Shown here: piece by piece, positions 8,125 through 37,804 of the stretch | Layout of the letters: every line of letters starts with the position of its first letter | Numbering within the stretch: the first letter of the stretch is position 1 | NCBI RefSeq assembly: GCF_007859765.1 | Contig: NZ_SIHJ01000003.1 | Coordinates: 186,001-250,000 of the forward strand | Source of the DNA: Posidoniimonas corsicana | GTDB taxonomy: Bacteria > Planctomycetota > Planctomycetia > Pirellulales > Lacipirellulaceae | Direction: 5' to 3' | DNA length: 64,000 nt | Position numbers and translations under genes: made by a program | Notes under the pieces: model-generated | Seen by the model: only the letters and a program-made list of their open reading frames with translations | Told to the model about the DNA's origin: nothing | Databases searched by the model: none

Positions 8125-8167
8125 GGCAGCGTATCAGAGCAGGGGTGGTTGAACTCAGGTGTTGATC

Positions 8168-8247
8168 GTAGCCCCCGGCTCTGCCGGGGGATTGAATCAT
8201 GGCAACACTTTGCACCTATGCTGTCTCCCAGCAGAGCCGGGGGCTAC
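8168..8247. repeat. REP-like hairpin pair, family A (GTAG + CCCCCGGC hairpin, inverted pair)
   Basis: GTAG at 8168-8171 is followed by the perfect hairpin CCCCCGGC-TCT-GCCGGGGG (8172-8190). After a 34-base spacer comes an inverted copy, CTCCCAGC-AGA-GCCGGGGG-CTAC (8225-8247). The unit is a head-to-head pair of short palindromes, each with GTAG at its 5' foot. It lies between rsmE and the ExeA-like ATPase in a 280-base spacer. A related but degenerate copy lies at about 12422-12444. Confidence 0.75.
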
Positions 8248-8404
8248 GAGCCGATCAACGGGACGGCCCGCACAATGCTCGCCCATGCTAGCAAGCGTCC
8301 CGCGGCGCCAGTTGGCGTTGAGTCGGCACGCCGGCAGCGCCGATTATGACGAACAGCCCCGCCCGCGCGCAGGCGCCGGGCCGACTCCTCCGTGGGAACC
8401 AAGC

Positions 8405-9585: not shown

Positions 9586-9689
9586 GGTGGGGGCCCCGGG
9601 GGCGCTCCGCGATAGCGGAAGCCCCTGCGACGCACCAACCGCGTCGCGTACCTCTCGGGGGCTTCCCTGCGGGAGCGCCCCCGGCGCCC
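9586..9689. repeat. Hairpin repeat, family D (inverted pair of GC-rich imperfect palindromes)
   Basis: The left arm at about 9597-9626 (GGGGGCGCTCCGCGATAGCG then GAAGCCCCTG) is matched by an inverted arm at about 9654-9685. The left arm is identical at 29 of 30 positions to the reverse complement of 11568-11597, on the other side of the neighbouring nuclease-like gene. GTGG precedes the left arm. It sits directly downstream of the DUF4404 gene and could also act as a transcription terminator, but no T-tract follows. Confidence 0.7.
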
Positions 9690-9737: not shown

Positions 9738-9799
9738 GTAGGGTGCATGAAATGCACCGGCTCTGTGACCGGTTGTGTGATGCGTTGCACGCACCCTAC
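9738..9799. repeat. REP-like hairpin pair, family B (GTAG + GGTGCAT hairpin)
   Basis: GTAG (9738-9741) and GGTGCAT-GAA-ATGCACC (9742-9758) are followed after 20 bases by the inverted copy GATGCGT-TGC-ACGCACC-CTAC (9779-9799). In the second copy the stem has changed on both strands from GCAT to GCGT, mostly keeping pairing. The final C of the CTAC foot is the last base of the stop codon of the downstream-facing gene at 9799. A second unit of the family is at 37180-37243. Confidence 0.75.
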
Positions 9800-11510: not shown

Positions 11511-11599
11511 GTGGGGGCGCACACGACGGGAAGCCCCCGTGGCGTAAGGCTCCAGCGCTGACGTATCAGGGGCTTCCGCTAGCGCGGAGCGCCCCCGCC
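11511..11599. repeat. Hairpin repeat, family D, second unit
   Basis: The left arm at 11511-11544 (GTGGGGGCGC start, AAGCCCCCG end) pairs with an inverted arm at 11567-11599 (CAGGGGCTTCCGCT, then AGCGCGGAGCGCCCCC). The right arm is the near-identical reverse complement of 9597-9626. The unit lies in the 235-base spacer upstream of the nuclease-like gene, so the two family D units bracket that gene. Confidence 0.7.
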
Positions 11600-34135: not shown

Positions 34136-35524
34136 ATGACCGCTTCGCCCAAGCTGCTCCTGGTAGACGACGACCGTCAGGTTCTCGAGTCGATGGCCGA
34201 CTGGCTACGCGACCAGGGCTTCGACCTCGACACGGCCGGCGGCTACTCGGACGCTCTGGAGCGCATGGGCGCCGGCGCATACGACCTCTTGCTGTCGGAC
34301 ATCCGGCTGCAGGACGGCGACGGCTTCGACCTGTTGGAGCGGTCGCTCCGCCAGTGGCCGCAGACGCAGGTCATCCTGCTCACCGGCTACGGCACCCCAG
34401 ACTCCGCCATCGAGGCGGTCCGCGCCGGCGCGTTCGACTACCTCACCAAGCCGCTCATGGACGACGAGCTCTTGATGTCGATCGAGCGGGCGTTGTCGCA
34501 ACGCAAAGTCGTCGAAGAGAACAACAGCCTGAAGGCCGAGCTCGAGAAGAAGTACGGCCTGAGCGGCGTGGTCGGCGCCGACCCGCGGATGGTCAAGGTG
34601 TTCGACATGGTCGAGTCCATCGCCGACACCCGCGCCACGGTGCTGGTGACCGGCGAGAGCGGCACCGGCAAGAGCCTGATCGCCCGCGCCATCCACCGGC
34701 GCAGCAGCCGCGCGAACGGGCCGTTCGTTGAGGTCGCCTGCGGCGCGCTGCCCGAGAACCTGCTGGAGAGCGAGCTGTTCGGCCACGTGGCCGGCGCCTT
34801 CACCGGCGCGACCGCCAACAAGACCGGCAAGTTCCTGCAGGCCGACGGCGGCACGATCTTCCTGGACGAGATCGGCACCGCCACGCCCGCCATGCAGGTC
34901 AAGCTGCTGCGGGTGCTGCAGGAGCTGGCCTTCGAGCCGGTCGGCGGCAGCGAGACCCACACCGTCGACGTGCGGGTGATCCTGGCCACCAACGAGGACC
35001 TGGCGAAGAACGTCGCGGAGGGCACGTTCCGGCAGGACCTGTACTACCGGATCAACGTGATCAACATCGAGTTGCCGCCGCTCCGCAGCCGCGTGAGCGA
35101 CGTGCCCGTGCTCGCGCAGAAGTTCTTGCAGGAGGTCTGCGAGGACTCCGGCCGCGACGTGAAGGGCTTCACCGACGAGGCGATCGCCACGATGCAGAGC
35201 TACGGCTGGCCCGGCAACGTGCGGGAGCTGCAGAACGTGGTGGAGCGATCGGCGCTGCTGGGCAAGGGCGAGATGATCGACACCATCGACCTGCCCCCCG
35301 AGATGCGCGTGGGCGGCGGCCTGACCGCGCCGGCCAGCTTCAGCGGCAAGACCCTCAAGGAGGCGCTCGAGGGCCCCGAGCGGCAGATCATCCGCGAGGT
35401 GCTCGAGAAGAACGACTGGAACCGCAACCAGACCGCCGACGAGCTGGGCATCAACCGCACCACGCTCTACAAGAAGATGAAGCGGCTGGGCCTGGAAGAA
35501 CAGGCCGTGGCGCGCGGTAAATAG
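34136..35524 (+). CDS. Sigma-54-dependent response regulator (NtrC family)
   Basis: A 462-residue regulator from the ATG at 34136. The receiver domain (1-120) has the acidic pocket DDD at 11-13, phosphoacceptor Asp55 and Lys105. The AAA+ domain has Walker A GESGTGKS at 173-180, the sigma-54 contact motif GAFTGA at 220-225 and Walker [11 protein letters not shown] at 238-247. A C-terminal Fis-type helix-turn-helix ([20 protein letters not shown]) follows. All functional residues are present. No histidine kinase gene is adjacent, so it is an orphan in this window. It activates sigma-54 promoters when phosphorylated. Confidence 0.95.
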
Positions 35525-35551
35525 CCGGCGGCCGCAAGCGACCCCAACGTA

Positions 35552-35650
35552 GTAGCCGATGGATTACATCCATCGGATGCTCCGGGTAACGCTCTGCTGT
35601 ACGAGTCGACCCAACTCCGAGTTCTCCGACAGATGTAATCTGTCGGCTGG
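35552..35650. repeat. REP-like hairpin pair, family C, first unit
   Basis: GTAG (35552-35555) and the perfect hairpin CCGATGGAT-TAC-ATCCATCGG (35556-35576) are followed by a 49-base spacer and an inverted copy CCGACAGAT-GTA-ATCTGTCGG (35626-35646). The 3' foot is CTGG instead of CTAC. Both stems are perfect 9-bp palindromes although their sequences differ at paired positions. The unit lies between the NtrC-type gene and the pectate lyase gene. Confidence 0.8.
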
Positions 35651-35728
35651 AGTGGGCGCGACTTTGCTTTGCCGCGCCGTGTTGTGCTAACCTCGGGGGT
35701 TCCCTCTTCCCCCCTCCGAGGCCGATCG

Positions 35729-37156
35729 ATGCGCTGGCCCCACTCCGTGTGCACCCGCGTCGCGCTTGCACTGCTCCTCTTTCTGCAGCTCACGAACATT
35801 GCTGTGGCCGAACCGCCCAGCCGCGCCCAGACGCTTGCCGCCATCAAGTCGGCGGCGCGGTACTTCCGTGGCACGCACGCGCTGCACGGCGGGTGCGTGT
35901 ACCACTACTCGCTCGACACGCAGCAGCGGTGGGGCGAGGGGCCGGCCGGCGAGTCGCTCGTCTGGGTCGAGCCACCCAGCACGCCGAGCGTAGGGCTGGC
36001 GATGCTCCGCGCGTTTCGCGCTACCGGTGACAAGTTCTACCTCGATGCCGCCCGCGAGACCGCCGGCGCGATGGTCAACGGGCAGATGGCCACCGGCGGG
36101 TGGCCCCGCGCGTTCGACATCGCCGGGCGGATGCGCGGCGAGCCGTTCTCCGGGGCGCGCGACCGGACCGAGGGCCGCTCGTCGCTCGACGACGGGCAGA
36201 CCCAGACCGCCATCCGCTTCATGGCCCGCGCCGACCAGGCGTTCGGCTTCGCCGACAAGCCGGTCCACGACGCCTCGCGGCGGGCGTTGGCCGCGCTGCT
36301 CACGGCCCAGTTCCCCAACGGCGCGTTCCCCCAGGTGTGGAGCGGGCCGGTCGAGCCGCACCCGGTCGTCCCGGCCGGCTACCCGGACTACGACTGGCGC
36401 ACCGAGCACCGCGTCAAGGAGTACTGGGACCTCTACACGCTGAACGACAACGTGTGCGGCTACGCCGCCCAGGCGCTGGCCGCCGCCCACGAGGTCTATG
36501 GCGAGCCCGACTACGAGGCCGCGCTCCGCAAGCTAGGCGACTTCCTGATCCTCGCCCAGATGCCGGCGCCGCAGCGTGGCTGGGCCCAGCAGTACAACTA
36601 CCAGATGCGGCCCGTCTGGGCCCGCGCGTTCGAGCCCCCCGCCATCGCCAGCGACGAAACGCAAGAAGCGATCGAGACGCTGCTGCTGATCCACCGCGTC
36701 ACCGGCGACGACAAGTACCTGGCGCCCATCCCCGCGGCGCTCGACTACCTCGAGTCGTCGGTGCTGCCGGACGGGCGCCTGTCGCGCTACTACGAGCTGC
36801 GCACCAACCGCCCGCTGTACATGCAGCGCAACGGCCGGCAGTACACGCTGACCTACAACGACGACCGGCTGCCCAGCCACTACGCGTGGAAGATCCCGTC
36901 GCGGCTCGAGTCGCTGCGGAAGAAGCACGAACGCGCCGCGTCGGGCGACGGCCCGCCCCAACCCAACCCCGCCGCGCTGGCGGAGCGGGCGCGGCGGGTC
37001 ATCGGCGAGCTCGACGACCAGGGCCGGTGGGTGAGCGTCAACAGCGGCGGCCGCCACAAGGGCCAGCCGGAGTTTGCCGCCGGCGAGCGGTACGTATCGA
37101 GCGGCGCGTTCTGCGAGAACATCGGCGTGCTGTGTGATTACCTGCAGGCCATGTAG
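35729..37156 (+). CDS. Secreted pectate lyase (PL10-like)
   Basis: A 475-residue protein with a signal peptide (MRWPHSVCTRVALALLLFLQ, cleavage after VAE/AEP near residue 28). The catalytic region follows an alpha/alpha-toroid pattern of the PL10 pectic acid lyase family: GGWPRAFDIAGRMRGEPFSG, LDDGQTQTAIRFM, QQYNYQMRPVWARAFEPPAI and YFxxSVLPDGRLSRYYELRT-like segments. PL10 enzymes cleave polygalacturonate by beta-elimination with calcium. It is longer than the minimal PL10 domain and its calcium-binding Asp residues are not in the classical spacing, so substrate specificity may differ. Copies of repeat family C lie on both sides. Confidence 0.78.
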   Translation: MRWPHSVCTRVALALLLFLQLTNIAVAEPPSRAQTLAAIKSAARYFRGTHALHGGCVYHYSLDTQQRWGEGPAGESLVWVEPPSTPSVGLAMLRAFRATGDKFYLDAARETAGAMVNGQMATGGWPRAFDIAGRMRGEPFSGARDRTEGRSSLDDGQTQTAIRFMARADQAFGFADKPVHDASRRALAALLTAQFPNGAFPQVWSGPVEPHPVVPAGYPDYDWRTEHRVKEYWDLYTLNDNVCGYAAQALAAAHEVYGEPDYEAALRKLGDFLILAQMPAPQRGWAQQYNYQMRPVWARAFEPPAIASDETQEAIETLLLIHRVTGDDKYLAPIPAALDYLESSVLPDGRLSRYYELRTNRPLYMQRNGRQYTLTYNDDRLPSHYAWKIPSRLESLRKKHERAASGDGPPQPNPAALAERARRVIGELDDQGRWVSVNSGGRHKGQPEFAAGERYVSSGAFCENIGVLCDYLQAM

Positions 37157-37179
37157 CGCGGGGCAGCAGCATGTGGCTT

Positions 37180-37243
37180 GTAGGGTGCATGCAATGCACC
37201 ATCGCGGTGTGGTGGGGTCGTTGGTGCATTTCATGCACCCTAC
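37180..37243. repeat. REP-like hairpin pair, family B, second unit
   Basis: GTAG (37180-37183) and GGTGCAT-GCA-ATGCACC (37184-37200) are followed by a 22-base spacer and the inverted copy GGTGCAT-TTC-ATGCACC-CTAC (37223-37243). Both stems are perfect. It is very similar to 9738-9799, with unrelated spacer sequence. Confidence 0.8.
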
Positions 37244-37264
37244 CGACTCGTCGCAGAGGACCCG

Positions 37265-37364
37265 CTAGCCGATGGATTACATCCATCGGACGCCCCGGGG
37301 CGATGCTTTCCCTGGCCGGTCGACCTTTCACCGGGTTCTCCGACGGATGTAATCCGTCGGCTAC
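37265..37364. repeat. REP-like hairpin pair, family C, second unit
   Basis: CCGATGGAT-TAC-ATCCATCGG (37269-37289) is preceded by CTAG. After 50 bases comes the inverted copy CCGACGGAT-GTA-ATCCGTCGG-CTAC (37340-37364). The CTAC foot contains the stop codon of the minus-strand GNAT gene (37361-37363). Spacers of the two family C units share GTTCTCCGAC before the right arm. Confidence 0.8.
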
Positions 37365-37804
37365 TGAGCCTGTGGATCTGCTGCAGGCAGCTCTCGCAGC
37401 AGCGTGTACCGGACCACGCCGTGGGGGTAGACCGTCAGCTCGTGCTTCACTTCGTAGCCTAGCCGCAGGTAGAGCTCGGGCGCCTGGAAGCTGAAGGTCT
37501 CGAGGAACACCGACGTGCACCCGCGTCGTGCTGCGGCGGCTTCGAACTCGCGGACCAGCCGGCTCGCGATCCCCTGGCGGCGGCGATGCGGCGCGACCCA
37601 CAGCTGCTGCAGCTCGCAGGCGGGGCCCCACGTGCGGCCGATCGCGCCGGCGATGACCCGCCCCTCGGACCGCGCGAAGCAGGCCAGCGGTCGCACCTCA
37701 CCCAGCGGGGCCGCCTGCTCGTTCGCCGCGCCGAGGCCCTCGTCGACGATTGCAAGGTCGTCATGCGACGGGGCGTCCGTGGTGCTGTAGTCAACGCTGC
37801 TCAT
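37361..37804 (-). CDS. GNAT family N-acetyltransferase
   Basis: A 147-residue GNAT. The start MSSVDYSTTDAPSHDDLAIV at 37804 is preferred over a Ser/Ala-rich extension to 37864. Core motifs are VIAGAIGRTWGPACELQQLW, then WVAPHRRRQGIASRLVREFE with the RRQGIAS acetyl-CoA loop, and SVFLETFSFQAPELYLRLGY. Together they match stand-alone small-molecule acetyltransferases. Its first 14 bases overlap the preceding gene. Its stop codon lies within the hairpin repeat foot. Confidence 0.88.
   Translation of the reverse strand: MSSVDYSTTDAPSHDDLAIVDEGLGAANEQAAPLGEVRPLACFARSEGRVIAGAIGRTWGPACELQQLWVAPHRRRQGIASRLVREFEAAAARRGCTSVFLETFSFQAPELYLRLGYEVKHELTVYPHGVVRYTLLRELPAADPQAQ

Follow-up and report, generated by a model that had tools for sequence, protein, structure and literature searches.

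Four perfectly paired hairpins in a 64,000-nt stretch of the Posidoniimonas corsicana genome (contig NZ_SIHJ01000003.1, positions 186,001 to 250,000; the whole stretch is referred to here as the window) appear to be REP-like palindromes, a family arranged mostly as inverted doublets, that are copied, or were until recently, by a genome-encoded HUH/Y1 transposase of the RAYT (TnpA-REP) kind. We put the probability of this reading at about 85%. Comparable systems have been described, and by analogy with them the hairpins would be bound, cleaved and moved by a 159-aa protein encoded in the same genome.

The hairpins lie at positions 35557-35575 (+), 35627-35645 (−), 37270-37288 (+) and 37341-37359 (−), where the original prediction had placed them, and a mean of 0 such hairpins was found in 100 dinucleotide shuffles of the window. 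The three stem variants that it had described (ATGG/CCAT, ACAG/CTGT and ACGG/CCGT) and the constant TAC loop were recovered as well, but its start positions precede the actual ones by one base, and the stem, given there as 8 bp, has 9 bp (CCG...CGG) and is perfect in all four copies. We also observed that the four hairpins form two inverted doublets, each with two unlike stems, an arrangement absent from the prediction. Doublet 1 (35556-35646, no strand; 91 bp, 49-nt spacer) joins CCGATGGAT-TAC-ATCCATCGG (35556-35576, +) to CCGACAGAT-TAC-ATCTGTCGG (35626-35646, −), and doublet 2 (37269-37360, no strand; 92 bp, 50-nt spacer) joins CCGATGGAT-TAC-ATCCATCGG (37269-37289, +) to CCGACGGAT-TAC-ATCCGTCGG (37340-37360, −). 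AG stands directly 5′ of every hairpin, within a GTAG foot at the left hairpin of doublet 1 (35552-35555, +) and at the right hairpin of doublet 2 (37361-37364, −).

All four hairpins are intergenic and close to gene ends. A sigma-54 response regulator gene (NtrC/AtoC-like; 34136-35524, +) lies to the left of doublet 1, a pectate-lyase-like gene (35729-37156, +) between the doublets, and a GNAT acetyltransferase gene (37361-37804, −) to the right of doublet 2; the stop codon of the latter is the TAG (37361-37363) of the right-hairpin foot. Other palindromes can be found in the window. A further inverted doublet with a GTAG foot, formed by GTAGCCCCCGGCTCTGCCGGGGGA and an imperfect partner, occurs at 8166-8249, and its core CCCCCGGC-TCT-GCCGGGGG also flanks a more distant RAYT-like gene on both sides in another genome (G028, locus L139). 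A third GTAG-footed palindrome family (GTAGGGTGCATG...) is present at 37180-37243, 25 bp to the left of doublet 2, and at 9738-9799; the former copy is the target of Rfam matches at 37174-37250 to a microRNA family, which were set aside as far below the gathering score and on a palindrome different from the hairpins. Imperfect inverted repeats at 9617-9666 and 11529-11577, which start with GGAAGCCCC and end with GGGGCTTCC, are perhaps another repeat family.

The core GGATTACATCC occurs in 27 exact copies in the 6.77-Mb window genome (G000), and its reversed pattern in none. When the three inner stem pairs were left free, the pattern returned 27 copies in this genome, 32 in that of the other species of the genus (G041) and 0 in the other 41 of the 43 family genomes. 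A search of named genomes gave 11 matches in 11 records, which were taken as chance (by eye, nine had unpaired arms and two were paired, one of these with a G-T). We then relied on a repeat model of sequence only, built without base pairs, and thus without pairing bias, from 45 pattern-found copies; it gave at least 78 matches at E ≤10 in G000 and G041, with 150 candidates scored per genome, out of 3387 in one and 3021 in the other. The copies read were 73 of the 74 matches with E ≤0.05 (33 in G000 and 40 in G041), which leaves out four matches with E >0.6 and one at G041 C1:197907. They make up 29 inverted doublets (58 copies) and 15 singlets, and the doublets measure 74-76 bp (n = 9), 89-93 bp (n = 18), 82 bp (n = 1) or 129 bp (n = 1). 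The outer flanks of the doublets seemed by eye to be inverted in places (e.g., G000 C1:3664943), an impression that vanished against shuffled partners, there being no shared inverted extension (136 vs. 131.2, P = 0.22). As is usual for REPs, many palindromic copies are present per genome (their intergenic position was checked for the four in the window). The foot reads NNAG in 70/73 copies, NTAG in 47/73, GTAG in 26/73 and GTGG in 0/73; REPs in the strict sense carry a 5′ GTAG or GTGG, and we therefore use the term REP-like.

Two stem pairs vary in step among the 73 copies of the two species. At columns 9/21 the pair is CG in 52 copies and TA in 21, at columns 10/20 it is GC in 63 and AT in 10, and mixed or wobble forms are found at neither. 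The lack of intermediates suggests that no fewer than two double changes arose long ago and were then copied, so that covariation within the genus looks like three inherited stem types. Outside these pairs, 16 changes were seen in 1314 stem positions, all one-sided and none compensated, with G-T left by two of them, and four changes in 219 loop positions; stem and loop do not differ in rate (Fisher P = 0.51), in counts that cover only copies similar enough for detection. Since they take uncompensated stem changes at the rate of the loop, single copies do not look individually maintained. The doublet that occupies an orthologous place in G000 and G041 (L045/L091) has uncompensated changes in both species.

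These counts bear directly on the original prediction, which had taken the four window copies as evidence for a folded single strand, had proposed a genome-wide covariation check, and had named unpaired substitutions at an unconstrained rate as the result that would speak against it. The last is what single copies display. The four copies do not suffice as proof, their variable pairs being a few old double changes spread by copying, and the genome-wide check yields, within the genus, three stem types without intermediates. Its wider claim, that the folded strand matters, holds between genera, as described below. Judged from the sequences, pairing is kept in replicating lineages and not copy by copy.

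The surroundings of the window hairpins differ between the two species. In G041, the pectate-lyase-like gene (64% identical) is followed directly by the two genes that lie beyond the acetyltransferase gene in the window (the first at 27% identity in 118 aa with E = 2e-13, the second at 82% in 179 aa), and the matching place (L210) is without doublet 2, the neighbouring palindrome and the GNAT acetyltransferase gene. The left neighbour of the pectate-lyase-like gene in G041 is, by eye, not the NtrC-like gene. Gene order therefore differs on both flanks of this gene, and at this one locus both doublets lie at breaks in gene order relative to G041 (35524-35729 and 37157-37790). The second break corresponds to a segment of ~630 bp (37157-37790) that holds doublet 2 and the acetyltransferase gene and is missing from the matching place in G041. 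Sites common to both species are the doublet L045/L091 and a single hairpin (L037/L077).

The gene for the 159-aa protein lies at G000 C5:163645-164121, between two complete doublets. In G041, two single hairpins that together span ~690 bp enclose a 179-aa ORF, whose homologous part shares 64% identity with the protein across 159 aa. Homologues were found at E ≤0.001 in 28 of the 43 family genomes, some of them weak, and a family profile matched at E ≤1e-8 in at least 29 of 343 genomes of the phylum (the window's included), many of the matches being distant, with 10 candidates scored per genome; a plasmid search with the 159-aa protein gave 0 matches. The protein alignment comprises 17 of 30 loci, the remainder being L119, L125, L129, L131, L133, L134, L135, L137 and L138 and the weak distant matches L139-L142. 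H83, H85, W119, Y142 and H146 are invariant in all 17 aligned members, which share an HUH motif of the form [TSQ]HxH and the Y-motif YLxxHxG; the unaligned member L135 breaks the latter (YMPKLSG). RAYT transposases carry an HUH motif and a single catalytic tyrosine, which in this family would be Y142.

Domain models agree with this assignment at varying strength. Among the 17 aligned members at E ≤1, nine matched Y1_Tnp (PF01797; best E = 1.9e-7), nine the IS200/IS605 transposase model (best 6.8e-8) and six the REP-associated tyrosine transposase model (best 9.7e-4), and the 159-aa protein of the window genome taken alone had 0 matches in Pfam or NCBIfam. The best PDB profile match was the ISHp608 transposase over the HUH region, which is not significant (E = 0.34). 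Compared profile against profile, the family scored 99.5% (E = 2.9e-23) with a set of five class-3-like proteins, the class label being our own reading, and 14.9% with four classical proteins including E. coli rayT. Because YLxxHxG fits no Y-motif of the listed subclasses, we file the family, on these motif and profile comparisons, as a relative of class 3 RAYTs outside the published RAYT subclasses. The Pfam Y1_Tnp genes of the two genomes (five in G000, six in G041) were also considered as the mover and dropped; no exact GATTACATC core occurs within up to 1.5 kb on each side of these loci. The five such matches in G000 (L028-L032, on C1 and C2) include one that is broken by stops (L029) and two that resemble published class 3 RAYTs (L030 and L032, with a TYGxWLPGDxRG start and a Y....Q end).

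Hairpins also accompany the homologous genes of other genera. Perfect hairpins (arms ≥7, loop 3-4) number 55 in 12.5 kb (4.4 per kb) less than 200 bp from 30 RAYT-like genes, four of which are weak distant matches, and, at distances above 600 bp, 17 in 52.5 kb (0.32 per kb), a near/far ratio of ~14. They flank 17 of the 30 genes on both sides within 200 bp, seven on one side and six on neither. At 15/30 loci the hairpin consists of AGCC, a 7-base arm, a 3-base loop (TAC, AAC, CAC and CCC among others) and the second arm, and several other homologue loci have hairpins with 4- to 6-base loops. We aligned 24 distinct 3-base-loop hairpins, leaving out identical hairpin repeats and L131 (foot CAAGCC) and including two hairpins from L048 and L180. 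Six of the seven stem pairs are changed on both sides, doubly changed cells number 63 against 16.9 (sd 4.0) after shuffling, and covariation scores 0.973, compared with 0.228 for shuffled and 0.05-0.27 for slid alignments. The shuffles are not exceeded by the number of pairs altered in both arms (6 vs. 5.6) or by that of further pair types (16 vs. 15.6). No row with more than one broken pair had been admitted, a choice that inflates the 96.4% of positions that are paired and not the number of pair types; likewise, the AGCC foot is present in 24/24 hairpins, but AGCC was the search key for them. Independent evidence came from a separate pattern with one pair freed, AGCCGCGNTGCTACGCANCGC, which returned 51 matches in 7 of the 43 family genomes, all other than those of the genus, and the freed position was paired in 50 of them (A-T 37, G-C 12, T-A 1, unpaired 1). 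In a genome from another family of the phylum (G240), the stems are GGGCCGC and GGGTCGC with loops TAC or TGC. Other genera thus keep the pairing and the foot while the stem sequence changes, which argues strongly for a pairing constraint across genera.

These observations could be accommodated if the enzyme reads a folded single strand in which an AG(CC) foot precedes a short, perfectly paired stem that closes a small loop. Stems would then drift only through paired changes in lineages that are still copied, new stem types would spread by copying, and an inserted copy, no longer maintained, would decay without compensation. TnpA-REP is reported to act on folded single-stranded REPs, with cleavage lowered or nearly abolished by a mismatch in the perfect group 3 stem (PMC8266576), and by analogy pairing may be demanded at copying and not afterwards. 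A need for pairing only at copying fits both the strong covariation across genera and the free decay of single copies.

Several other origins of the paired changes were weighed. Fold-back template switching (quasipalindrome correction) alters both arms at once, and compensation could in principle arise by this mutational route without selection on pairing; the absence of G-T or other intermediates at the two variable pairs is what a one-step double change would give. We nevertheless consider it unlikely, since these copies also contain the 16 stem changes left uncorrected and the orthologous doublet is uncompensated in both species. Palindromic sites of a dimeric protein bound to double-stranded DNA would also covary, the half-sites changing together by the symmetry of the protein, and covariation alone cannot part such symmetry from hairpin pairing. 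That the best-conserved part is the asymmetric AGCC foot, that half-sites diverge between genera, and that the associated gene is HUH/Y1, an enzyme type whose action on folded single strands has been demonstrated (PMC8266576), makes this interpretation very improbable.

Hardly any credence is left for RNA hairpins selected by the host on each copy, as transcript 3′ ends or terminators. The position of the window hairpins near gene ends, and the folding of both window doublets as single-stranded DNA far better than shuffled sequences (z −5.0 and −6.1), would suit such a role. Terminator, promoter and Rfam readings gave nothing at the hairpins, however, the sole terminator-like site (36930-36942) lying elsewhere. 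Stem changes as frequent as those of the loop and uncompensated, a sequence confined to the two genomes of this genus among the 43 of the family, and the same architecture bracketing transposase-like genes all tell against it. An equally slight chance is given to MITEs, mobilized through their terminal inverted repeats by a conventional double-strand transposase. The inverted ends and the lengths of 27/29 doublets (74-93 bp, the 129-bp form and the one 82-bp form excluded) resemble such elements, but the gene between ends of this type is HUH/Y1-like, 15 singlets occur beside the 29 doublets, and the outer flanks share no inverted extension.

Copying by a RAYT-kind enzyme would place the family close to published REPtrons, in which short palindromes of moderate copy number, an HUH/Y1 gene bracketed by the same palindromes, and related RAYTs with different cognate stems are likewise described (PMC2817692, PMC3686654, PMC8266576, PMC6006769); perfect stems of 8-9 bp are reported for Stenotrophomonas REPs. 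The foot differs from that of these systems, being NNAG-CC here with GTAG in a minority of copies, and the YLxxHxG motif of the aligned members differs from those listed in the published RAYT table (YI..NP or Y..Q; PMC6006769). According to the same source, class 3 TnpA-Y1 proteins are found principally in Planctomycetes, Acidobacteria and Proteobacteria with atypical flanking structures, and have the HuH motif NHVH, the Y motif YV[VI][AENY]EQ and a CnGA hairpin foot. The present family is similar to them in its profile-profile match and differs from that description in [TSQ]HxH, YLxxHxG and the AGCC foot, with neither Y----Q nor CnGA. REP sequences in planctomycetes have been published before (PMC3733652; PMC6006769, class 3), and among the papers listed by full-text searches on RAYTs, REPs and planctomycetes, no title or abstract opening describes the repeat family reported here.

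The doublets are more often mixed than would be expected. Within the genus, 25/29 combine two different stem types, and four are uniform against 11.3 expected (P = 0.0008, a guide only, because copies share descent); uniform doublets number 0/15 in G041 (P = 0.001) and 4/14 in G000 (P = 0.23, not significant). Beside homologous genes, among hairpins of the AGCC+7+3+7 form only, 15/16 doublets with 3-base loops are mixed (10/34 loci, nine genomes), 12 by fully compensated differences and three with a broken pair. In other genera, 41 copies in 40 stretches are mostly singlets, and seven rows with an inward partner represent six doublets, five mixed and one uniform. Four doublets with longer loops (L118, L133, L182 and L183) are uniform. 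Gene-flanking hairpins without a 3-base-loop doublet are uniform or nearly so at L118, L120, L121, L123, L124, L126, L127, L128 and L130, and mixed at L116 and L136.

Pairing in the genus doublets is better locally (508/522) than between left and right hairpins (452/522), and spacer ends are less complementary within doublets than between permuted partners (98 vs. 119.9, sd 7.2), a significant difference; an ad hoc split of spacer ends into two classes gave 19/29 mixed against 14.5 expected (P = 0.086, not significant). Of the four doublets submitted to DNA folding, three preferred one long hairpin; only doublet 1 of the window did not. The inverted doublet as a unit, the preferred spacings and the singlets recall the REPINs of P. 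fluorescens SBW25 (PMC3116915), as the doublet arrangement in REPIN definitions would have it. SBW25 doublets are described there as typically built from identical REPs and seldom mixed, and compensatory changes as common along a single long hairpin, in contrast to the mixed stems and the spacer ends less complementary within than between doublets found here, so that one REP type and one long hairpin, the remaining REPIN features, do not describe the family. The Y and Z units of E. coli BIMEs (PMC2817692, PMC8266576) likewise combine two REP types per doublet, and do so next to the RAYT gene too. In E. coli REPs a stem bulge is conserved and GTAG is present, whereas the stems here are perfect, and unlike in BIMEs the two types are set apart by one or two compensated pairs within the genus and by up to three elsewhere.

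These observations raise the possibility that closely spaced doublets are kept heterotypic, with two distinguishable ends and two local hairpins favoured over one long one. We regard this as a tentative and rather doubtful proposal. Hairpins separated by a gene, which would be hard to fold together, are mostly uniform, as it would lead one to expect; its odds are lowered by the uniform state of four doublets and of additional loci. If it is true, the hairpins of one doublet would differ by one to three fully compensated pairs while each remains perfectly paired, and the compensatory changes would record two element ends diverging while each must fold, a process repeated in several genera by RAYTs that belong to none of the published subclasses. 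Mixed doublets would then predict local hairpins, and not one long hairpin, as the substrate, opposite to the Pseudomonas REPIN picture. The present analysis links a repeat family with the enzyme that probably acts on it, and the family provides a natural series of stems on one architecture that could be useful for asking whether recognition depends on fold, foot or loop.
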